Shown: positions 3,140 through 54,800 of the stretch, piece by piece
Layout of the letters: each line of letters opens with the position of its first letter
Numbering within the stretch: position 1 is the stretch's first letter
Assembly: GCF_020382885.2 (NCBI RefSeq)
Contig: NC_058493.1
Coordinates: 22,255,499-22,319,498, forward strand
Source: Scatophagus argus
Taxonomy: Eukaryota > Chordata > Actinopteri > Scatophagidae
Direction of reading: 5' to 3'
Length of the DNA: 64,000 nucleotides
Made by a program: the position numbers and the translations under genes
Notes under the pieces: generated by a model
Seen by the model: only the letters and a program-made list of their open reading frames with translations
What the model was told of the DNA's origin: nothing
The model's database searches: none

Positions 3140-6100
3140 TCAGGTGCACTTGTTCATGCAGAGCAGCAGCTCCATGCGCAGGGCGATGCGTGTGTGCCAC
3201 CCGAGGGGGAGGATGCGGATGTAACGAGCCACGATGGGCGGCCGCAGGAGGTTCTGCACGGACGAAGAGCGGTCCGAGTTTCCGTAAAACACCTGAGGAG
3301 AGAGGAGTGGGAGGGCAGGACGGATTAGTTCAGACTGGCATTAATACTGCTGCTTTTTAACCGGTCAGTGAGTTGTTCACTCTGTGACATCAAAAACAGT
3401 GAAAAGTGCCTATCAGAGTTAGAGAAGGAAATGAACTGATGAATTGTTTGTTTTGAGGAGACAACCAAAGATAAGTTTAAAACCAGTATTTTTTTTCTTT
3501 CTTTTGCTTGTTAAATGACAACAATTAGACAATTAGCAAAATTGTTGGTGACCAGATTTTCTGTATGTGAACTAATTAATCCATACATGAGAACATCTTA
3601 TGTGAAACATCAAAAATAAAAGACCTTTTCCAATAACAAATACTCAGAATTTTTCAAATCTGTGTATGCTGTAAGTGTATGTTAAAAAAAAAGTTAGAGA
3701 TGTGAACAAATCTTCATCAATGATTGATTTATTGACTATGGCATCACCATTGGGTCAGTGTAATGTTAATGTTGTCAGATGACTGAAACATTTGAAAGGA
3801 CACGTCATCCTGTCAGTTTTTATCACAATAAGACCGTTTGTGTCACATTTATCCGACAGTGTTTTTGTTTCTGTGTTTCGACTGGGTTCGACTGACCCTG
3901 TTGTTTCCAGTCTGGTCTTTGTAATAGATCCAGTTGAGTTTTTCATCTGTGCGGTACTGAACGCTGTACTTGGTGACCCACTCGTCAGCGTCACAGCGGC
4001 CCTGACTGAGGATCCCCGACACCACCATCACGTCCCTCAGATCAATCTGCAGCCACTGACTGTTGTCCTGAAACTTAGACAGCCAGGCACACCTGGAGGA
4101 CGAACGCAAACAGCTGCTGAGTCAGCGCCAGAAAACAAAGCAACTCAATGAAGTTCATTAGTTTTATTACTGTCACATTTAAGAACATCTCACATAAAAA
4201 GACCCCTTAGGTTGGCAATGATGCCAAACCTGTACTTTTCAGGGGCAGTCGTGGATCAGCGGTTAGGGTGTCGGACCCGTAACCGGTGGATCGCTGGTTC
4301 GATTCCCCGTCCCGGTGTCCATGGCTGAGGTACCCTTGAGCAAGGTACCTAACCGCGGTCGCCCACTGCCCCGGGTTTGCTGTGTGTGTGTGCACGTCAC
4401 TTGGGTGGGTTAAATGCAGAGCACAAATTTCGTTGGAGTGAGTTCCCTCCAATGACAAAATATGTCACTTTAATCTTTAACTTTATTTGATCATAGAATA
4501 CATCAGCCTGAGGACCTTTGCTCCATGTCATCTTTAGCATTGTGGTTCGGTTCCTTTCATAATGAATAAAGTCTTCAGAGTCAGCAGTTTCATTTAACAT
4601 ACTGCATATTTCTCTGCTATATTCTTGAATTTCCTGTCTTATTTATGTTTGCCTGTTTTGAAGCGAGAACATATTGCATGTTAACCTTACCAGATGCACC
4701 TCACATCATCACAGGTTGCATTTACTCTGGGAGCATTTTTTTTCCTAATGCTGCTCCTCACAGATGGCAGGTGCACGGGCATTCGTTTATTAGGGTCTTT
4801 TCATGAAGACAAGACACAGAGCAACAGTTTGTTTGTTAAAATTAAAGGAACAGTCCACCCGAAACTTAAAATTCTATCAATATCTACTCACCCCCCAACA
4901 CCCTTTGGGATGAGCGTTATGGAACCATTTTAGGTTTATTTTTCAGTTTGGAAGAATGCTGCGATGCTGTGTGGCTGTGATGATCCAGAATTGTTTGGTG
5001 GAAGAAGAAATCTGATTTTCCATCGGCATAAGGATGACATTATGATAATGACTGAATTTTCACTTTTGGGTGAACTGTTCCTTTAAAACAAACCTCACTG
5101 CAGCTGTATAATCATGCAGATGTTTTGCTAGTATCCGAAAACATGTTGGGCTGTACCTACCCGAAGCCCTGGCTGTTGAGCCTGGCCTTGCTCGGGACCC
5201 ATGAGGAGAACCAGCCGGTGTACTGGTCCTGGTTGGAACAGGTGATCTGGTCTGGACTCACTGATCCGGCCTCAAAGCCCAGAGGCCTGTGGTATGGACA
5301 CTCTGCCAGAGGATCAGAGACAAAATTGTAATAATGGTCTTGACTTGCATGTCTTTTGTTATATCAGTTATTGTTTTTCACTCAAAGACCTCCTGCAACA
5401 TGAATTTCAAGGTCACCAGACCTGTCGGCTGCTAAGCAGTAAAGCACTGCACTGTGACTGGCAAATGATCGTCACTAAGTCTTTCTACAATCATGTTCTC
5501 ATCTCTCTATTCTTTGCCCTCTGTCCATATTCACCCCTGCCGACTCCCATCCTTACATCCTCTCGCTCCCCCCCGGTCCCCTGCCGTTAGCAGCATCGGT
5601 GTGACCCATATCCCATCCTAAAAGCCTGCGGTTTAATTCTCCTCAACGAGAGATCAGTGATGTCCATTAGGGCGGCAGGAGGACAGATGGCCACGTTCTG
5701 CTCTCCACAGCTTTAGCTCCATGTTGCTCCCATGTTTTGATCCGTCGATCTGCCCTCTCACTTTTCACTAAAATCACATGAGAGGAAGTCCTATAATGAC
5801 TTAGTAGATAAACGTTAAGAAAAAATATGTGAATGGGAGTAATGAAAAAAGTCCTTTGCATGAATGAAACTTCAGCACAAAAAAAAAAAGCTGTAGATAC
5901 ATGGAGCACAAACCTGCTGTGCTTTTGTTTACTACCGTCTTAATCTGGCACAGGGTCACTTCCTGGCTAATCCCAGTATTACAACGACTACAGCAGCAGC
6001 AGCGCCTGTGTGAGTCAGGAGATAAGTGTTTACATAACAGCAACGCGAGTGACTCCGTAGTCCTCCCCGACGTATTTCACGACTAAAATAAAACATACTC

Positions 6101-8448
6101 GGATGGCTGAATTATAAAAACAAGAGGTGAAACACGAGGAACTGAGGTGGAATCAAGTCTGATGCCGAGCAGGAAAGTCTGTCTCACTCGTCATTTATCA
6201 TCACCAGGCCCTCGTAGAGGTAATTACTGGTTTCTGTGCAATCGGCACAGTCTATTAAGAGGCCCATAATCTGAGCGTCATGTGCTGAAGCAATGATTAT
6301 CTGCTGAACTTCTTTCTCCTCTCTGTCACCGGTTCCCATGTGATTTGTGGCTCAGTTGACACACAAACAAAACCCTTTCACTGTACATCAACTTCTTCCT
6401 CTCTTCTAGTCTGATATGATCCAAGCCATGATCTTTCTGTCTCTGGCCCAGTGAGGCTGTTTGCTTGTTTGATCCCAAAAACAGATTTAAAGCATGAGAT
6501 TTGGTGGAAAGTTAAACCTCAGGCCAAGTCGAAGGGAGATTTCCATCTGCTGACAAATATGATCAAAAGCTAATGGGTGCTGTTGCAGGATTATTTTGTC
6601 AACTGTTGTTTGCACGGTCAAGAACGAACTTTTTTCAGTCAAATGAACAGTTTTCAGTCTGTTTCTGGATTTATGTAAAGGTCCAAAGCCAACACTGTGA
6701 GAGAGAGAACATCTCTGAGCAAAACAAGAAACAAAACAAAAGTGCCACCTGTATCCTATAATTGTCTACATATCTGTCTGCACTGTGTGTATTTTGATGC
6801 AGATTAAGATCCAGATGCAGACCACATTTTCTATTACTGAAATAGCACATTTGGAGGATAGTGCAGCCTTGGCGGAGCTTTTGCGTTTCTTTTCCTGGCT
6901 CCATCTGCATCATTTTCTCTGGAGATGACCAGTGAAGCATGTCCACCCTGTGGCGTCAAATCTGGAGTCTAATGCACTCATGCATGTGCATGTACATATA
7001 GAGATTTTCTTTCTGTGTCACGCTCACACACACACAGGGTGAAACTGTGGAGCGTGGCAAATTTATTGATCAATCGATTAGGCAATTGGCAAGAATTCAA
7101 CCAGGAACATGAGATTTGTTTAAATAATTTCTTCAAGCAAAACGCCCAAACATTTTTAATTTTTAGGTTTTAGCATCTCAAATGTGAAGATTTGCAGGTT
7201 TGTTTTGTCTTATGTTATTGTAATGTCACTTTCTTTGGATTTCAGAACAAAAGCTTCAATCCAAAATGAGAAGATATTTAGAAGATTAACTGATAAAAAA
7301 TAATCCGTAGCTCCAGATCTGTTTACTCCTCGTTACAAGTATCATCATTAGTTCAGTGATTACATTTGATCATCTAATGAGCAGAAGTTAGTTAATTAGT
7401 AAGTCAAAGAGTGGCCTTTTTAGAGGTTACACAATGTGTGATAAAACATCATCGTTTCAGATTTTGCCAAATGGAAACCATGCATACAGTAATTAATGAG
7501 TATATTTTCAAGAAGGTCACAGGTAACTCCGACACAACAAACAGTTTTGCTTTTATGATTTGTATTTGATGGTTCCTACTGTACCGGGCATGCAGTCCAC
7601 TCCTCGCACCATGGAAGAGCCCGTCCCAGTGGAGGAAAACTCAGTCGGGGTTTCCCCTCCTTCGCAGTCACATTTGCAAGACCTGCTGGTCCACGCTTCA
7701 GACACTCCCGCCTCAGGTAAACACACACAAACAACAAGAAATGGATACAAATCCAAAACAGGCGAAAAAAATCATTATTTTAAAGTACAGCTGGTATCAC
7801 AGGTGACTGAAAAGACGGTCCAGCAAAGGGAGATCCTCAGCTGACACCCAATGTTTTTTCAGGATCGACCACAGAGGGCTTGATAAGGTGAGCTACGACT
7901 CATCTGAAAGTGTTCAAGAAACCCTCTGAATTTTGCTTTGTGCAAACACTGCTGGTTTTAACGCCATAAGAGTTAAATCATGTCTGACATCGTTAGGCTG
8001 ATGTTTCTTCGTACCTCTTGAGCACGAATGCTGATGAACTCTTTTCAGGCAGATGGAAGGAAATCCAAAACAAATGTCAACCAGCCAACGAAGCATGGAG
8101 GAAAAAAAATAAAGACTGTTAGGATGCAGTAGCCATTGTAGCAAACAAAATCTGTGCATCGATCTGACAGGTTAATCATTTTACTTCTTAGTAATGGATA
8201 AATAAACACAACAGACTAGCAAGTGTGATGTCACCAAACAAAAAACCCGGATGATAATCTCAAGGATTAATGAGGAAATATCTGCTAGTTGTCAAATTTT
8301 CCTCAAAGTGTTGTCCAGTTTGAGGTAACTTTTTCAAAGATTTTCACATCTTATGGGTTCTGAAGGAGCGGCTTATAAAAACTGAAATCGTACCGTTAGC
8401 TCCCAGCAGAAGCAGGGCCAGCAGGAAACGCTGCACGTTGAGAGCCAT
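3140..8448 (-). CDS. RS1: retinoschisin, secreted discoidin-domain protein, 6 exons
   Basis: Seen: minus-strand coding exons 8448-8394, 8040-8015, 7711-7585, 5302-5161, 4092-3897 and 3292-3140 (stop) join in phase to 699 nt, or 232 residues. Exons 4 (142 nt) and 5 (196 nt) match the human exon lengths, and the 26-nt second exon matches the human micro-exon. The first exon encodes a signal peptide ([18 protein letters not shown]). Next comes the Cys-rich RS1 segment (CKCDCEGG), then the discoidin (F5/8 type C) domain with [42 protein letters not shown] and a C-terminal MNKCT. Known for the family: RS1 is secreted by photoreceptors and bipolar cells, forms disulfide-linked octamers and keeps retinal layers adherent; its loss causes X-linked retinoschisis. 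The least certain part is exon 2, placed only by length, phase and splice sites. In humans RS1 lies beside PPEF1, as it does here. Confidence 0.95.
4242..4490 (+). repeat. tRNA-derived SINE in RS1 intron 4
   Basis: The 5' end carries a tRNA-like head with an A-box-like tggatcagcgg and a B-box ggttcgattcc about 45 nt further on. It is followed by a tRNA-unrelated body containing gggttaaatgcagagcac. This is the normal layout of a tRNA-derived SINE. It lies between RS1 exons 4 and 5. Confidence 0.8.
4846..5082. mobile_element. MITE with TTAA target duplication
   Basis: A 237-bp element begins aggaacagtccaccc and ends gggtgaactgttcct, which are near-perfect inverted repeats. It is flanked on both sides by TTAA (4842-4845 and 5083-5086). 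A TTAA duplication is typical of piggyBac-type elements. There is no coding capacity, so it is a non-autonomous copy, inserted in RS1 intron 4. Confidence 0.75.
7055..7320 (+). repeat. degraded dispersed repeat, family A, copy 1
   Basis: The copy shares tctcaaatgtgaagat and surrounding AT-rich words with three other stretches of this window (near 12955, 42940 and 49010). It starts near an atcgatta motif. It resembles a very common old teleost element of hAT-like type; the assignment is from memory. Lies in RS1 intron 3. Confidence 0.5.
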
Positions 8449-9950: not shown

Positions 9951-9964
9951 ACAGATGCAGGAAA

Positions 9965-10455
9965 ATGAAAGCTCCTGTCCGAGAGACACGCAGAGCTCCT
10001 TCACAAACCAAGAAGAGGAGGATCCGAGCCCACTCCGCTCTGATCTACAGAGCTCATAAAGAGGTTAGAACCACAGCAGAAGCAGCAGCTTCCATGGACG
10101 TGTGGTGCTTAAAACTCCTAATACTTCTTGTTCTTCATCGGTTGATTGTGCTACAGTGTTTCACAAGTCTTTCCAAGTGGTCTGCAGGTCACACACACAC
10201 ACACACTCAATACAAATGAAGGAGTCCTAATGTGCAACCTTCTCATCTCTCCTGCAGATCGCCTCTGCTGGAATGAGGAGTCCAGATTTCCTGGCCAGTC
10301 GGCTCGGTTTTCCCAAACCGGTCCTGCTCAGGCTGGTGAGCTCAGAAGCTTCCCGGCTGTCAAAAACCAACAGACAAAAAGCCATCACTCTGCGAGAGAT
10401 CAATGCTGCTGTCTCACTTGTAAGACGGAGGATTTGTACGAGACCTGCTGCATGA
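9965..10455 (+). CDS. divergent, intron-containing histone H2B-like protein
   Basis: Seen: exon 9965-10063 (33 codons) ends at gag|gttaga. A second exon, 10258-10455, begins after a good acceptor (ctctcctgcag). Both are phase 0 and together encode 98 residues. The protein has a short basic tail (TKKRRIR) followed by a region that aligns with the H2B histone fold almost without gaps. The clearest match is EASRLSKTNRQKAITLREIN, against [20 protein letters not shown] in canonical H2B (helix 2 end, loop 2, helix 3 start). The upstream IYRAHKE stands where H2B has IYVYKVLKQ. The C-terminal alpha-C helix is missing: the frame stops about 13 residues after the REI match. A consensus donor (ctt|gtaaga) after AAVSL could allow an alternative third exon, but none was found. 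A poly(A) signal follows at 10498. Canonical H2B genes lack introns and poly(A) signals, so this would be a variant histone, perhaps germline, or a decaying gene. No ortholog name is claimed. Confidence 0.6.
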
Positions 10456-10497
10456 AGAGCTGGACTCAACGCTGCGAGAATTTTATTAACTTTAATC

Positions 10498-10503
10498 ATT
10501 AAA
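10498..10503 (+). promoter_or_regulatory. candidate poly(A) signal of the H2B-like gene (ATTAAA)
   Basis: ATTAAA lies 43 nt after the H2B-like stop codon. No histone stem-loop was seen after the stop, which fits a replication-independent, polyadenylated transcript. Confidence 0.45.
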
Positions 10504-10795
10504 GAGCTTTTAATCTGTTTACTTTATACCTGATTCAAGTCTGATAAGTCAGTAAGTCAAATAACATCACTCAGCCTGAGCAGGAAGTCACAGCTGAGTA
10601 TCCAAGATTATTAATGACAAACTGTGTTTAAGTTCTGGATGACAGTTCCTGGCAGCTTCTTGGCTAAAATCTTTTCTCTGGTTGCAGTTTCTCAGATGTT
10701 TGTCCAGTTCTCTGTGAATGTGCTTCAGCAGAGCACACCTCATCAGGCTAGAAAGTCTGCTCTGATTTCCAGGTGAAATCCAGCACGCTCTGCAA

Positions 10796-10798
10796 CCC

Positions 10799-10829
<31 letters not shown>

Positions 10830-10830
10830 A
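10796..10830. repeat. homopolymer junction C24-A11
   Basis: A run of 24 C is followed directly by 11 A. On the minus strand the long G run could form G-quadruplex structures. Its length is also prone to sequencing error. Confidence 0.9.
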
Positions 10831-11879
10831 TCTCTGCTTTCTTCACATGAATGCAAACTCAAACAGCAGTCGAGTTCACGTCTCGCTCACATTTCAGGCT
10901 CTAGTTTGTTAGTTGTAAATTAAATATGCATAAGTAGACAACGTAATTATGTTGCCCATACGCGCGCATACGTTTGGATGTGTGTGCGTATCTGTATTAT
11001 TTAATAAGACTAAAGGTCTCGAGAACCCGCTGGCAGCTGATAAAACGCTTCTCTCAGGCCGGAAAACTGGTTTAATAAACGTCTGAAAGGTCGCCACATG
11101 GGACACAGAAGTGATCAGGAAATTACCTGTGACATATTTTAAGGAGGAACAGACGGTGGAGCAGCGGGTCCTCCCCGCTGTGTTGTGGTTTCATCCCACC
11201 TCGTGTTGCCTCCACCTCCCCTCTGTGCGTCCCCGTCTCCTCCTGCTTCACCACCGTCACCGCCTTTCACTGTCAAACCTTCTCCGAACAGCCATGTACA
11301 GGACGTGAAGCGCAACCTTCTCGAGATGCAATTTGATTGATTAATTAATCCCCCCCCCCTCCAATTTATTTTTGGTGCATCACAGGAAATGTGTGTCCCG
11401 CTCCTGATTTCCTGATCGCTCGGATTCAAGCTGCAGGTAGGAACCACAGCAAAGAAACACATTCGCGCAACAAGTCGTTTTGAATGCGCGTCTGGGTGAC
11501 GGTGTGACGGGAGGGGGTGCGCATTGAGAGGTTATTCCGTCTTATTTTGATTTGTTCTGTACAGTTTATGGGGTGTGAAAAGCGCGGGCCGTTTGGGAGC
11601 GTTGAAGCGTGAGGAGCGTCGTCGTCGCGGCGCAGGCTTTGTGTCGGTCAGGTGTCACGATGAACTCGAGCCTGATTTTAACGCGCTTTTGGACGGTGGA
11701 TGGAGTGAGATAAGAAGGATGACCGCATCGAGCCTTGACCCCCCCCAAACATTTTCCCACTAGTTTGATCAGTCCAGCTTTATTACATGCATGTGGATAA
11801 ACTCCGACCCCCTACAGCAGAAAAGTTCAACATCAAGTCGGTATTTGATTTAAGTTGTAACAGTGCTGAAAAATATAAT

Positions 11880-12300
11880 TCCAAATAAAAAGGTTACTTT
11901 GGCATGGAAGTATGGCCTGAAAGTATCGGTATTAAAACACTCCTTTTACATGATCATTTCAGAGTAGCCTAATGGGTATTATAATACTGGGTGATGATTA
12001 CTGATGCAGTAATGTGTATGTATATCACTTTAATGTTACTTTATAGCGGTGGATAACTTGTGAATTTGCCCCCGTGCAGGCGTCGGTTAAGTCTTAACAG
12101 GTAAAAACGAAACAACAGGTAATGTATCTATTGATTGATTATATTTTGTAGTATTTATCTTATTCTGCTGTGTAACCTATCACATAAATATCTTTCCTCT
12201 CGAATGCAGTACAAAGCAGCTGAAAATGCAAATAAAGTTTCAGTGCCTCAAAACTGTACTTAAGTACACTGAGTAAATGTACTTTTCACCACTACTACTG
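11880..12300 (-). repeat. dispersed repeat, family B, copy 1 (degraded)
   Basis: The right end reads gtacttaagtacactgagta and atgtacttttcaccact, the reverse of a common teleost repeat end (agtggtgaaaagtacat...). A second, opposite-strand copy is near 45665. The left boundary is approximate. Confidence 0.45.
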
Positions 12301-12553
12301 TCAAAGCTGCAAATACTTCAGCAGGCAACCTGACAAAAGACAGTTTTCTTCCTCGTGTTTTAGAGACATCTGAGTCAAAGAGTCAAACGAAGGAGGCTCA
12401 GGTCTCCAGCAGCTGATGCAGCCAAACGCCAGAGGTTTTCTTACTTCTCAGGTGTCACCGCCGCAGTCACATGCCACCAGCCAGATGTGACCCACAGCTG
12501 CCCACCTGTGAAAAACTGACTGATGTGAGCCCAGGACGTCCTCGCCGGTCATC

Positions 12554-15131
12554 ATGGGATGTGGCACCTCCGTTGCTACAGAGACGCAAGGCAAAAGAGT
12601 CGAGACGGGTGATTATGGCATCTTGGTCTTTTCAGTCCTTCCAGGACTGTCTCATGTCTTTCTTTTTTCTTTTTTGTCCTTGACATTTGGACTTGTTGTC
12701 CCTGAGGAAAGGTGTGAATAAAACACATCAGCACACCTGGCCTGTGGGTAGACAAGCTCAGATATGCCATAAGTGTTGGATGCTAATTGGAGTGCAACCA
12801 CAGAAATAATTTAAATGATGCTGTTAGGGTGAATGATGTAAGGGAGCAAAGAGTAATTGATTGTCTATACGCAGATTTGAATTATTATTGACTTTCCAGC
12901 TTTCAGTATAGACGCTCTAATACTCGTTGTCCTCTTCTCAGGCCCCATTAAGACAAACAGTCCATTAATAGATTTGTCAATAATGTCAAACATTCTCAAA
13001 TGTGAAGATGTGACACTTTTTACTGTTCATTAGTTGTTTAGTAATTTGTTTGGTTTTGGACAAAATGACACATTTAAAGACGTCACCTCAGACTAAGAAA
13101 TTGTTGTTTTTTTACATTTCTAGACAGAATTAATTAATTGAGAAAGCATTTGGCAGATTTATCAGTACTGAAAGTGATGGTTGTATGACTGCTATCAGGC
13201 TGAACTGATCTTGAATCTGTTTTAGCACTGGACATTTGTCTGTTCTCATTTAAGTAGATTTCTTATCATTTATTTATCGCTCTGTCTTGCTCTGTTTATC
13301 TCTTGCTGTCTCCTCTGTGAATCATTTCATGGCATTATTTGGGAAGGGCTCCATTAACGGTGTGTTATTAGCTGTAGTCATGGCGGTAGTATTTTACGCT
13401 TCTCAGTGTCACACTGTGTAGTGAATCTGTGGATCTGATGGTAATTAATTTGTGCAGTAATGAATTTTCCTCACACTTGTTGCACAAACACCCCAGATGT
13501 TTGACAGACGGTGCTTTGCTTTTCTTCACAGTCTGTCTTTTCTCTTTAATGAGGTCTGTTTCTCCTGAAAGCTTTTTTAATTTGCTTAGTTTCTCCAGGC
13601 CCACTGTTGCTCATGAGCTCCCCTGTGTCTTGTTATCTCCCTCCATACATGTGTGTGTGTGTGTGTCTTGCCTTGCAAATCGTTTTGTTCAATCACCACC
13701 TCCTTTTGCTGAATTGTGGTTTTTCTTCTCACAGATGACACGCTTAAGACTCCCAGCCCGGCTCTGAGTAAGACCCTCCTCAACATACATGACGTATACG
13801 CATTTGCATTCATTTTTTTATAGACTCCGTTGTCACCTGATGATGTCTTTCATAGCGCTATAAAAGATGCAGTAGAATTGGCTTCAGCTTGTGGATCAGA
13901 AGGTGAAAAAGTGCCAGGCTGTATTAGGATGCTGAAGAGTCTCACGTGTTACCTTCGTCTTACTGTATGTGTGTGACTCCAGATATTCAAACGTGTTTCC
14001 CAGTGAAATGTAACACCTGGTGTTTTGTCATAGCTATGAAGGCAGCCGTTCTGATCCAGCGATGGTACCGGCGTTACATGGCCCGTTTGGAGATGAGGCG
14101 CAGGTACACCTGGAACATCTTTCAGTCCATCGAATACGCCGGCGAGCAGGACCAGCTACAGGTGACTCTCAGAACAAAAACTCAGGTGCACGTGTATGGT
14201 CGTTTTGTGAAGCAGCTTAAACATGTTTTGTTTTTTTGTTTTTTTCTGCCTTCAGCTCTCCAGTTTCTTCAGTTTTATGCTCGACAACTTCACTCAGCTG
14301 AATGGAAACGGGCCAGGTTAGGAGCCAACTTACTTTTATCCACAGATTAGACCGATTAGGCCTGTGTATAGTCTGATTTCATCCTTGTTATTTTGAAAAT
14401 GCACATTTTGAGAGTAAAATAACATTTTGTAACAGTGCCACCATATGGATGTATTGTAATGCATTCTATTTTATTATTTGGCGCTGTGCATGAGAAGCTT
14501 TCTCACCTAATTGGATCCTCAGGTCTGCCTGTGACTCACCCGTACTGAACCTCAAAGTTTATTTGTTATTCTGAGCCACTTTTATTCGTGTATAGCTTTA
14601 AGTGTGATTTTGTTAGGTTCACCTCATGATGGTGTGTGATTGTGTGAAACTGAAAGGTTAAAAAAAGGGTGTTTCAGCTATTTCTTTGGTGAAGCAGATT
14701 GTTAGAGATTAAATTCCAATAGGACGTTAATTTGAGCTTGCTTATTAGTAGATCAGTTGGTGTTAAATAACTGTTGATGTAAACGTGTTTGAACACAGGA
14801 AAATTAGATTTGGACGCATTTATCACCTCCATCAAATTAACACCGGTTTTATTAGTCATGCCTCTGTATTTTGGTCTGGATTAGAAAACCCATTGCGTAT
14901 ACCCTGTTGCTTAGCAACTCCTGTGAATGTGGAGGCCACTGTGTTGGTGTGCTGCACTGACACAGCTGTGGTTTAAGTATGAATTGACCCACTCATCCAG
15001 CTAAAAAGCATAATGTTCCATTGATAAGCTAATCTTTAGGTCAGCCCTTAATGCTGAACATCCACAGTACATCCTCTTCATGGGTTTTACGTTCAGTCGA
15101 CATAAGTGATGTGGAGAGGCCAGACTCTCTG

Positions 15132-22521: not shown

Positions 22522-25500
22522 ATGAAGCTCCGGGCAGCACTGGTCGCTCTGCTGTGCATCTACACTCAAGGTACTTCTTTAAATTAATTTTTATTTTTGT
22601 GTGTTGTTGTATGCAGCGATTTCAGACGAGATGACAGGGATTCATTGTGAAACTGTCCACAGTGTGCGGAGCTGACAGATGCAATGGGTTCAGACACCTG
22701 GAGAACGGGCAGACATTTTTCCGCTATGGAGGACTGCTGGTGATCTTCCGCTGTCATCCTGGTTACAAGCTCCATGGATACAAAACCAACAGCTGTGTGT
22801 CTGGACACTGGTCCCGGGACATCCCAGTCTGCGTTGGTGAGGAGCTTCGTTCATGAGTGTGTTCTTTTAAACCTTTTTACTTTAAGATTTCAGTTTTGGT
22901 CAGTAGATGCATTTAGAGGGTAATGTGAACTCATTTGCTTCAACTTTGGCCCACAAGTATTTTAACTTGTAGTTAGCTGTGAGGGGCAACAACAAAGGTA
23001 ATTGATTACCTCAAACTTTTAATCACGTTCTATGATCCCTTCAGGCTCTGGCTGCTCCAATCCGGGACCACTCACTCACGGGACGAGCAGAATGAATGGG
23101 GATGGCTCCTGGGCCATGTTCAGCTGTAATAGCGGCTTTCGGCTACACGGGTCCTCGATGTTATACTGTAAGGGCCACACCTGGAATGGCACGACACCTG
23201 TGTGCAAAGGTGAGCGTGGAAAACTCTCAGCGACTAAAGCAGTAATTTGAAATGTTAGAATTAAGCTTGAGAAGTTGGTACCATTTTCAGATTTCAGAGT
23301 TGTGTCCATCTTCTCAGCTAACTCTCATTAAGAAAGTGAATGAGCGCAAAATGTCCTTTCCTGTCTTTTAATCATGTAATAATAACTTGATTTATATCAC
23401 ACTGTGTTAATTCTACCATATTCACTAATCTCAAACCACTAGAACACTGCACTATACCTGAAACTTTATTAATGACTCTTTTTTAGTCACGTTTGAAAGC
23501 TGCTGCACAAATAATTTTGCTTTGCCTGACACTCTTGTTTGCTCTGTTCTCTTTGTTAGAGTTCGACATGATGAGCTCGGTTTCAGGCTTCAGTGTGCAA
23601 AAGCCAGACATACACCAGAACCTCCAGGCTGCTGTAGCTCTTAAGTCTGCACAGCAATCCCACTATGACACCCTTGCTAATACTGCTTCCAAAGAAGCGA
23701 ACCACAAATTTGATGTGTTTCCTCAGATGCAATCCCAAATGTCCAGCAGCGAGAGGATTAAAGTGACTAACACAAAAGTCCAACTGCAGCAGCATATTCA
23801 GTTTTCCAGGTGTAAAGTCAAAGATGGAAGAAGATCTCATCATGAAGCTGAGGAGCAAAAGGAAGGTCAAGGAGCAGAAACAGGAAGTGCGAGGGATGAC
23901 TCAGAGGTGGAAGCTTCATGGGAGGAAGCAGAAAAGGTTGACAAAGTTACACAAATGTTTGCCTCTAAGTTACAGCTATCTGCTCCCGTTTCGTCTACTT
24001 TATCGTTAATGTCAGGAACGGAGCAATCAACACCTTCACCACCGTCATTTTCGACAGCCCATACGCCAAGTGGCACTGCTGTCGCAAATATTGCTGTCAA
24101 GGAAAAGGATGATGTGTCTCCCTCTGAATCACTAATGGGCTCCTCACCAATTGCAGATGAAGACCAACTGGCTGAAACTACCCTAAAGTTCTATCCGTCT
24201 TTGTCTCAGCAGGGGTCTGTAGATGAAGAGGAGCCCACAGAGACTTCAACACAAAGTGTATCTTCTTCTGCTCATTTCATTTTTACCAGTCTTTCCTCCA
24301 CTTCATCGCCTGCTTCCTCTGCTCTCCCCTTATCACTCCCCCTTCCGTCCTTTTCTGCCTCAACTTCCTCAAGTCCCAGCTCCACCCAGTCCAGTATGGA
24401 AACACAACTCCCTAATGTCACTTCTCCTTCAAACATGTCCACCACCAGTAAGCACAGATCTCACTGGACTAAATACCACAACCTCACACTGAACGTCACC
24501 TCAAAACCGTCTCTGCCGTCTCTGAGCCTCAGCAGACGTCCTGTGTGTCCATATCCACCTGTGCCTGCCCATGGGACCTTCTACTTTCGTAATGTGGAGA
24601 ATCCAGGTCCTAGAGAATACAGACATTACATACAGTATGCCTGCTACTCAGGGTATACACTGGCTCATGGAGACATTCATAGCTACTGCCAGCAGGGGGG
24701 CACCTGGAGTGGAATCACACCTGTTTGTCTGGGTAGGTGATGTTGCTGGCTCAGGGATGGCTCAAGATATTGATTGCCAATACAAGTCATATTTTGGCCA
24801 ATAAATTTTGAATTGAAAAAACTTTTTTTCCTGGGATTCTGGTTGTCTAAGCAAATCTATTATCAGATAAGCCATGCTCAGCTGAGCCTGGAAAGATTTT
24901 CCAGGAATGTAGAATTTTGTCCACCTCCATTTAATTTTAAGCAATCAGCATTCAAATCACTTAACAACTTAAAAAAAAAATTGACTAATCATTTCAGCTA
25001 AAGTCACACTTTCAGTCTGTTTCATTTGAGAAGCTTTGTGTTGATTTTCTGATTTAAAAATAATTACACAAATTCTTCTGCTGCATAGATAATCTCATTC
25101 TGAAATCATACTGTCAAAGATAATTTTGAACAGTACAAGTGAGTCCTGAACCTCTGTCTGATAGTGTTCTACCAGCTGAAAGGACCCTGAAAGTCAGCTC
25201 ATATTCACTTCTCTTTCTATAACCGATCCCTATACTTGAACTGATCCATTCTCCATCCTGGCTGTTTGTCTCCAGAGTTGACACCATGTTCTCTTAACAA
25301 TGGAGGTTGTTCCCAGCTGTGCTCTCACTCCCCACACTACAACCAGAGCTCCAATCAGACTCAGACCAGAACTCAGTGCCACTGCAGACCGGGATTTACT
25401 CTGCTTGATGATGGACGAACGTGTCGTGGTGAGGATATTAATGTTTTTTGTTTGTTTTCTTCCATCAGAGCTCTCACTGTGTGTAATATTCTTTCTGAAT

Positions 25501-51825: not shown

Positions 51826-54800
51826 TTAACATGTACTCGTGTCACCTTGTGTAGTCGGCTCACTTTCTATTTCTACTTCTGTGTTAGACTGTTCAATTTT
51901 CACCTCAGGACTAAAAGCCTTCTCACTGACAACACACTGACTCTCATCCAGATCATTACTTTTCTGGATTAGCTCCGTTTCATTTATATCCTGACTGGGA
52001 TTCTCCACTGTCTCTTCCTTTGACTCTTTGTCGTTGTCTGACTCTCCGGAGGAGGTCACCTCCTCAGGCAAATGGCTCTTCTTCTTCTTATGCTTCTTCT
52101 TACTCTTTTTCTTGCTTTTTTTGGACTGTTTATGGTGGCGGCGTGTGCTGGTGTCATCATTTGAGGTTTTCTCATTTTTATCTGGTTCCTTGGGGCTCCT
52201 TTCTCTGCTGTGCTTGCTTGTTTCCTCCTCTCTGCTTGAGCTTCTTGACCTTTTTCTTGCTTTTCTGTCAGAGTCTATATCTTTGCTTCTACCGTTTCTG
52301 TCTTCACTTCCACTCCTACACCTGTCTTTATCTCTACTCCGGTTTCTCAGCCTGTCTGGCTCTCTGTCTCTACTTCTACTCCTCGATCTGTCTCTACTTC
52401 TGCTCGGATACCAATAGGTCCTCCTTTCACTGTGTCTGGATCTGGATGACCACTTGTCCTCTTTATGCTGGTGGTAGGAGGCTCTCCTCTCTCGACTCCG
52501 GCTCCTGCTCCTCCGCCGGTCGCCCTCTCGTCTGCTGTGGGATCTCTCAGATCTCGGCGGGCTTCGGCTGCAGAGACGCTGTCTCCGCGATCTGTCTCCA
52601 TATCGCTCTGAACTCCATCCGTCTCTGCGACTCCCTCTGACACTACGGTCTGGTGACATGTGCAGGTCCCTGTCGGCCTCCCAGAATTCATTGCCAGGGT
52701 TTCGAAATACATGCAGGAAGTTGCAGTGCTTTCCTTTGGGGCACTTTTGTCTGTCAAATAATCCTGAGAGAGGAGAAGCAAACACAATTTAGGCAGTAAA
52801 TACAGTGAACTGAATCTTATATTTCTGTAGTACTGTAATCAAGAACAAAACGCTCTCATGTCAAAATAACTAACCACATATAGCATTCCTCCACCGTGTA
52901 ACAGGACACATCTCACAATGAAGCTGTCGGCCTGCGTACCACCTCCCATTGAACTTGATAAAGGCCTCCTTACACTGCTCCTCTCTGGACAGTCAACAGA
53001 GGGGCAAAAGGACAAAAAGGAAGAGAAGAAGGAAGAATTTGTTTATTCACAGTGCATTTTTTTTGTTCTTAAGTAAAGTTGTAGAGCAGTTGTGTGATGG
53101 CTTACGTGTCAAACTGAATGTAAACATTTCCTCTCAGGTGTGGTTCATAATTGCAGCTGACCTAAAAGGAAAAAAAGGGAAACATATCACCAAATTCATT
53201 CATTCCCTTCTCTCATGCCCCACCCCCCTCTTCCTCTCCCTCTCCCTCTCTTTATCTGTCTATCTTTCTCTCTCAACCCAATCGGTCAAGGCAGAGGGCC
53301 GGCCATCTTGACCCGGGGTCTGCTTTGAGGTTTCTGTCTTCTAAAAGGCAGTTTTTCCTTGCCACTGTCGTCAAGTGCTTGCTCAAGGGGGAATGTTGGG
53401 TTCTCTATATTACAGTTTAATTACGAGTTTGATCTAGACCTGCTCTAATTGGAAAGTGTCATGAGATAATTTTTGTTGTGAATTGGCGCTCTATAAATAA
53501 ACTGAATTGAATTAAAATTCAATGTTCTCCTGAACAGTAAAGTCTTAGACTGGTTTTTAAATGTTTAGAAAAGTCCTGAGGAATTACATCTTCAATTCTT
53601 CCTGACATCAGCACTGATTCAGTGACATCCGATATTTTGTTGACTACTGATAAAGCATCTTAAATGAGAGATGAAAGCTCCTCGAGACATACGTGTTCAG
53701 TTGCCCTTGACTTAGTACTTCAAGACACACTTGACACGGAGTACATTTATCTGCATTTGATTATTTGGAGAAATCAAATTTCACCAAAAAACAAAACAAA
53801 ACAAAAAAGGATAGACACAACTGGTTACTGCAGACTGCTGTTAAGGTAATGAAAGCACCGTTTTAAAAAATACTGATATAATAGCAACACATTCCTTGGG
53901 TGGTGTCTTGCATGTAATGTAAGGCTGTGTTCATGTGCTCATATACATGACGAGAATATGTCAAAGAAATGAGATTACATTACAAAGCTTACTGTAATTT
54001 GGGTGGTTTAGTGCATGTGCACCAACTGTCCCCATCTCATCTCACCTTGAACTGCACCACCTTGCCGACTCTCTTGAGCTCTGGCAGGACATCATGGTAG
54101 AACTCCAGGAAAGACTCCTGCAGCTCCTCCTCGCTGTGTTCCAACCAAGCGTCGACGTCATAATCATCTCGTCGTGTCTCCTCCATGCCAAATGTTGTAA
54201 ACATGCCACGGATCATCAGAGTCGGGCTGGCTGTGGGGTAAGCGTGCTTACGAGAACATCTGGACTCACAAAGACAGAAGAACATGTAAAGATATTCTTA
54301 AATCAGTATGTCCATCTATTGAACACTCAAACAGTAAGAATTTCACGCAGGAAGTCACATCAAAAGAGAAACAAATAGTACCTGTCTCCAAATCGACATG
54401 CCCCGGTCTTCAGGAAGAACGGACAGTTGGCTACATCGCGCTCTGTCCCAAAGTTCTCAGAGTTCTCCGTCACAGGAGCTTCAGGATTCATCCATGCTCC
54501 TCCATTTTCAAGCTGAAGTGAGAACATGGACAACAGCGCATGTGTACACTGCATAGCTAAACTTGAAACTAGAATGGGATACTGCAAATTATAAATTTCA
54601 CAAAGTTCTTCGCTTTTGTTCTGTTAGGTCGGTCACAAGATTTAGAGTCCAGACCCCTAAAGCCTTTTACAAGCTTTTTCCATACTTTCAGTAAACCTGA
54701 CAATTAGCAATATTCTGGTGTTACAGTCATAGTCACTCTTGATAAGAGTAAACAGAACTGGTAAAATCAGGATAAATACAAACAATGTACAGACTGGGAA

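Follow-up and report, generated by a model that had tools for sequence, protein, structure and literature searches.

A predicted two-exon, H2B-like gene without an alpha-C helix between RS1 and PPEF1 in Scatophagus argus

A two-exon gene model lies between RS1 and PPEF1

The stretch of DNA analyzed here (the window) is 64 kb of the Scatophagus argus genome (C1:22255499-22319498), which was searched as an assembly of 570.7 Mb in 48 contigs. A two-exon gene model in the window encodes a predicted protein of 98 residues, with the exons joined in phase 0 (Table 1). The two phase-0 exons proposed in the earlier note on this DNA held up, and a start codon, two open frames, GT..AG borders, and a stop codon were all present; the C-terminal end encoded by exon 2 is the short, basic RRRICTRPAA. 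Judged by eye, the acceptor (CTTCTCATCTCTCCTGCAG) is strong, whereas position +3 of the donor (GAG/GTTAGA, the slash marking the junction) is a T, which is unusual. The exon 1 ATG is preceded, 10 bases upstream, by an ATG in another frame. With a G+C content of 0.525 for exon 1 and 0.530 for exon 2, both exons lie above the window mean of 0.413 and above their flanks (0.376 and 0.418). This exon-level G+C was reached by 11% of 99-base windows and 4.6% of 198-base windows, and it lends mild support to a coding gene.

The location between RS1 and PPEF1 claimed in the earlier note was supported by Pfam, which identified two F5/8C pieces of RS1 on the 5' side and an IQ exon of PPEF1 on the 3' side. 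The GDLHG and EF-hand-like pieces of PPEF1 had no Pfam match and were named by eye. Elsewhere, the window contains a Ser/Pro-rich open stretch of 417 residues with a terminal Sushi domain (Pfam, 40.6 bits) and a CCCH-finger, Arg/Ser-rich exon that is ZRSR2-like by eye and matched Pfam CCCH below the cutoffs.

Table 1. Features of the window and of the C13 gene used for comparison (window positions unless another contig is given)
Feature	Position	Strand	Description
RS1, 5' neighbor	3143-3340; 3852-4121	-	Two F5/8C exon pieces
Upstream out-of-frame ATG and 34-codon frame	9955..10061	+	ATG at 9955; overlaps exon 1; weak start context
Coding exon 1	9965..10063	+	ATG (9965) to GAG (10063); basic N-terminal tail, H2B alpha-1 equivalent; 33 codons, open frame
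Phase-0 intron	10064..10257	+	194 bases, GT..AG; predicted from sequence
Coding exon 2	10258..10455	+	Loop 1, alpha-2, loop 2, and alpha-3 equivalents, TGA; 65 codons plus TGA
GFPKP codons	10306..10320	+	Two prolines; break the alpha-2 equivalent in the exon 2 model
Donor-like GTAAGA	10420..10425	+	Within the coding frame, after AAVSL
ATTAAA	10498..10503	+	Candidate poly(A) signal, 43 bases past the stop
PPEF1, 3' neighbor	within 13928-14350	+	IQ exon
Sushi-domain open stretch	23487-24740	+	417 residues
CCCH-finger exon	51826-52788	-	ZRSR2-like by eye
C13 two-exon H2B	L024:5713-5826, 5911-6147 (G000:C13)		84-base intron; split KVLKQ/VHPDTG, phase 0

The predicted protein matches H2B above background

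An H2B profile was built from sequences of the Scatophagus argus genome: five distinct canonical H2Bs, recovered from 6 of 16 loci with one strand read, and a two-exon H2B encoded on contig C13. The 98-residue protein scored 26.4 bits on this profile, compared with 14.9 bits for the best shuffle (19,733 scored of 20,000 made). This comparison with background bore out the H2B-fold likeness proposed in the earlier note, as did the PDB matches, which were dominated by H2B. In a phmmer search of the PDB, the best single H2B matched at 6.2e-5 over residues 4-88, and a tandem H2B chain matched at 9.9e-9. Distinct sequences matching at E up to 1 numbered 174, and 59 of the best 60 of these were labelled H2B; the remaining one, 6kw3_T, is labelled H4 and aligns like the H2Bs. 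Exon 2 alone matched the best single chain at 0.01 and tandem H2B at 9.8e-7, while exon 1 alone had no PDB match at E 10.

Among open reading frames of the window (797 scored of 983), that of exon 2 ranked first on the H2B profile with 21.6 bits, and the next scored 9.4 bits. Exon 1 was weak on the profile (4.1 bits alone; its reading frame, 4.5 bits, ranked eighth). An ungapped alignment of the exon 1 end with the alpha-1 end of H2B gave p values of 2.4e-4 to 2.9e-3 against shuffles across eight length and reference variants, and the exon 1 end was tied for first place with two others among 1,877 open phase-0 GT sites on the + strand of the window.

As expected, the two exons of the C13 gene were the top-scoring of 637 scored control reading frames (180.0 and 40.8 bits). 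The next two, at 26.8 and 24.6 bits, were non-H2B histone folds of what we take to be ABTB2/BTBD11-like proteins, encoded on C7 and C1. Since these controls also score in the twenties, such a profile score indicates an H2B-like fold and not H2B proper. Direct comparison separated the two: the window protein scored 23.0-25.8 bits against eight distinct canonical H2Bs and 22.7 bits against the C13 H2B, versus 7.0 and 3.6 bits against the two ABTB2/BTBD11-like domains. In a tree, the protein grouped with the H2Bs and apart from the ABTB2/BTBD11-like domains; its branch length was 10 with unsettled bootstrap, and its placement among the H2Bs was left open. Assignment to the ABTB2/BTBD11-like domains was rejected on these scores and this branching. 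By its sequence, the window protein is an H2B in the broad sense, in that its match to H2B, spanning alpha-1 to alpha-3, is stronger than chance and stronger than its match to other histone-fold families. The exons at L020 (C7:16956959-16957162, - strand) and L021 (C1:28735514-28735717, - strand), which we presume to be ABTB2/BTBD11-like, contain an H2B-like segment that extends into the alpha-C region.

Neither Pfam nor NCBIfam produced a match to the window protein, in which 20 of 69 fold residues are identical to H2B, a count obtained for each of four H2Bs compared. In a genome search at E up to 0.001, the 98-residue protein matched its own locus twice and no other: one match was to exon 1 and one to exon 2, the latter aligned with read-through of the intron including one stop. 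Searched by itself at E up to 10, exon 2 matched itself and five H2B loci at E 0.85-1.9, namely, four canonical loci and the C13 gene. As expected, no relatives were found in viral contigs (107 pattern-matching stretches, none confirmed) or in bacterial and archaeal contigs (591 stretches, none confirmed).

The alpha-C helix is absent and alpha-2 is altered

The protein contains 24 basic and 5 acidic residues, for a charge of about +19 at pH 7. Residues identical in all five alignment rows made up 13 of 28 positions from alpha-2C to alpha-3 versus 6 of 41 before them (Fisher p 0.006, with region borders picked after the alignment was viewed). In what we take to be H2B numbering, E76, R79, N84, R92, and E93 are kept, and Y83, R86, and R99 are changed. 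The truncation before alpha-C described earlier held up: the alignment contains no alpha-C, and the reading frame stops 10 residues past alpha-3. Consequently, the acidic-patch residues of alpha-C and K120 are missing.

The alpha-2 region carries one extra residue and the motif GFPKP. A single-sequence structural model of exon 2 (mean pLDDT 72.3, pTM 0.53) contained helices at residues 9-16, 20-34, and 45-60, with alpha-2 broken and the last helix extending into RRRIC. Structural comparison of this model gave low and mixed Z scores (best 5.2); the top rows were not H2B, and histone chains ranked 17 and below. The extra residue and the two prolines call a normal histone fold into question, and because the model breaks alpha-2 at these prolines, incorporation into nucleosomes is uncertain.

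The earlier note had also suggested that splicing after AAVSL could alter the C terminus. The donor-like GTAAGA is present, yet no alpha-C-like exon follows it as far as position 14400. A scan of open stretches at least 10 residues long in 10416-14400 detected no alpha-C-like peptide (best, 1.2 bits), and none of the four acceptor-like sites found there under a strict rule led to an H2B-like peptide. An alternative C terminus formed by a third, alpha-C-like exon within this interval was rejected; the suggested splicing thus found no support, although the GTAAGA may still serve as a donor.

The 3' end lacks the histone stem-loop pattern

The consensus pattern of the histone stem-loop occurred on neither strand of the window and nowhere in the 4 kb around the C13 gene, but it stood directly after the stop codon at 15 of 16 canonical H2B loci. 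The poly(A) signal claimed previously could be specified as the hexamer ATTAAA. The C13 gene has no AATAAA and no ATTAAA up to 350 bases from its stop, so a poly(A) hexamer is no marker of class in this genome. The one canonical-looking locus without the stem-loop pattern, L003 (G000:C14:1390137-1390511), encodes a protein 98% identical to a typed vertebrate H2B and may be a replication-independent copy.

The intron occupies the same column as that of a second H2B gene

A canonical H2B query produced at least 21 matches in the genome (E up to 10), comprising at least 16 single-frame H2Bs, the two exons of the C13 gene, two ABTB2/BTBD11-like domains, and one weak row on C15. The C13 protein has a near-canonical fold with an intact alpha-C and scores 86.7 bits against the Pfam histone model. 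Among reading frames of 70-85 residues or more in the 65 kb around this gene, Pfam identified an exon of an ASC-family channel, exons with ankyrin and SOCS-box domains, and a homeodomain; by eye, these neighbors were read as ASIC, ASB10, and GBX1, together with an AGAP-like ankyrin end. We take the human order near H2BK1 to be AGAP3, GBX1, ASB10, IQCA1L, ABCF2, and H2BK1. ABCF2 was not seen among the same reading frames. With neighbors that match in part and ABCF2 not seen, the C13 gene is probably H2B.K.

The window gene is split in phase 0 at YRAHKE/IASAG, and in the alignment this intron shares its column with that of the C13 gene. The earlier view of a divergent H2B variant with an intron was borne out, but the intron is no novelty in itself, since H2B.K, H2B.N, and the C13 gene have one. 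What is new here is that an intron-bearing H2B and the window gene share an intron column in one genome. This intron place is the link between the window gene and the C13 gene or H2B.K; residues give none, and a residue-based link is unsupported because the C13 H2B scores no higher than the canonical H2Bs in direct comparison.

A working, H2B.N-like gene is the favored reading

Judged from its sequence, the locus very likely holds an H2B-derived, intron-bearing gene without alpha-C. With moderate confidence, we favor a working protein-coding gene for a divergent, replication-independent, short H2B.N-like H2B variant, derived most likely from an intron-bearing H2B of the kind to which H2B.K belongs. 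According to PMC8857922, H2B.K and H2B.N are the sole intron-bearing variants of the set studied, their introns lie at the same place in the fold, and mammalian H2B.N lacks most of alpha-C; together with the column shared with the C13 gene, these features suggest the H2B.N-like reading. The match to H2B above shuffles, above all other scored frames of the window, and in the PDB counts in its favor, as do the missing stem-loop pattern, the crowding of identical residues into alpha-2C to alpha-3, the grouping with H2Bs and not with ABTB2/BTBD11-like domains, and an intact frame at about 29% identity to H2B. Weighing against it are the lack of a Pfam match, residues no nearer the C13 H2B than the canonical H2Bs, the open place in the tree, the altered alpha-2, the nonideal donor, the upstream ATG, and the lack of either hexamer at the C13 gene.

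A recently dead or dying H2B variant, one that changed under selection and fell out of use too late for stops to have accrued, is an unlikely alternative. It would fit the extra residue and GFPKP in alpha-2, the T at +3 of the donor, and the out-of-frame upstream ATG, but start, stop, frame, and GT..AG borders are all intact. A neutral simulation started from 93 codons taken from the C13 gene and applied 0.6 changes per site, which brought the mean identity to 31%. Of the resulting copies, 4.1% were stop-free, and with indels (assumed at 0.1 per change, 70% of them frame-breaking) about 8e-6 stayed in frame. Neutral decay to such identity usually brings stops or frameshifts, and the intact frame therefore makes long neutral decay unlikely; the simulation bears on long decay and is silent on recent death.

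We consider it rather improbable that an intronless canonical H2B copy gained its own intron and lost alpha-C on its own, with the likeness to H2B.N reflecting convergence. At the intron place, every one of the 16 canonical H2B coding sequences has CAG/GT, as one of 7-10 strict proto-splice sites per sequence (21-25 loose), which puts the chance of an independent gain here closer to one in ten than to one in 300. Such a gain is therefore not very unlikely, which counts against the favored reading, and both the residues and the N-terminal tail are slightly nearer the canonical H2Bs than the C13 H2B. However, copying an intron-bearing H2B requires no new intron, and this genome does contain a gene, that on C13, whose intron lies at the same place.

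That the frame belongs to another histone-fold protein, such as an ABTB2/BTBD11-like gene fragment, or arose by chance is very improbable: the missing Pfam match, the weakness of exon 1 by itself, the profile scores of the ABTB2/BTBD11-like domains, and the non-H2B top rows at low Z of the predicted exon 2 model would agree with it, but the direct scores to the eight canonical H2Bs, the margin over shuffles, and an intron in the H2B.K column speak against it.

If the window gene is a working H2B.N-like variant, its mRNA would be polyadenylated and made outside S phase, and by analogy with mammalian H2B.K and H2B.N, it would be expressed mostly in germ cells, above all in oocytes. The protein may pair with H2A and dock on H4 by way of the better conserved part of its fold, from the latter half of alpha-2 through loop 2 to alpha-3. 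Nucleosomes formed with it would have neither the H2B side of the acidic patch nor K120 as a ubiquitylation site, and they would be loose and poorly readable by acidic-patch binders. Alternatively, the protein could have a role outside nucleosomes, as is thought for H2B.L.

It is doubtful, though conceivable, that this fish gene belongs to the H2B.N lineage, with its intron and missing alpha-C, and is an orthologue of mammalian H2B.N. Were this the case, the short H2B would have arisen not in early mammals but in an ancestor common to all bony vertebrates, and nucleosomes missing the H2B side of the acidic patch would have persisted for >400 million years, probably in eggs. PMC8857922 dates the origin of H2B.N to early mammals, about 177 Ma, and describes a search outside mammals with H2B.K as the query, plus chicken for variants generally; by this design, so divergent a fish gene could have been missed. 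With a fish gene built in the same way, the age and role of alpha-C-less H2B could be tested in animals whose eggs are accessible, and such a gene would offer a natural experiment on a nucleosome without half its acidic patch and without the H2B K120 site.

Comparison with known H2B variants

The window gene was compared with four kinds of H2B. It shares with the canonical, replication-coupled H2Bs of the same genome (16 loci) the fold residues from alpha-2C to alpha-3. However, these genes have a single exon, an alpha-C, and, at all but one locus, the stem-loop pattern; the window gene has none of the three and was rejected as a canonical H2B.

Divergence, replication independence, a poly(A) signal in most cases, and a possible extranucleosomal role liken H2B.L (subH2B; mammals) to the window gene, but H2B.L is described as intronless in PMC8857922, and the two exons of the window gene rule out this assignment. 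A genomic place for H2B.L was sought and not found in the literature consulted.

With H2B.K (H2BK1; human 7q36.1), represented here by the C13 gene, the window gene shares two exons, a phase-0 intron in the same column, and no stem-loop nearby. As described in PMC8857922, H2B.K reaches back to bony fishes, and both H2B.K and H2B.N are expressed in oocytes. Unlike the C13 protein, the window protein has neither a near-canonical fold nor alpha-C. Its gene lies by RS1 and PPEF1 and not in a 7q36-type neighborhood, a role filled by the C13 gene. It was rejected as H2B.K proper on the absent alpha-C, the low identity, and these neighbors.

The closest likeness by architecture is to H2B.N (H2BN1; human 17q11.2). 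As described in PMC8857922, PMC9526256, and PMC11742582, H2B.N has an intron at the H2B.K place, lacks most of alpha-C, has a strongly diverged fold, and in most genes carries a poly(A) signal. It differs in that H2BN1 is reported only from mammals and lies next to MYO1D-DT (PMC9526256), whereas the window gene is in a fish and has RS1 and PPEF1, not MYO1D, as its neighbors. The window protein is also further diverged (20/69, versus an identity of 42.4% given for human H2B.N in PMC11742582), with likenesses and differences drawn from published descriptions. In the literature searched, with subscription papers and preprints outside its scope, no report of a fish H2B.N-like gene was found. As the neighborhood differs and the likeness is by description, the window gene is not filed as H2B.N, although it may work like it; on its sequence, the most fitting reading is one more H2B.N-like variant with an intron, at a different locus.
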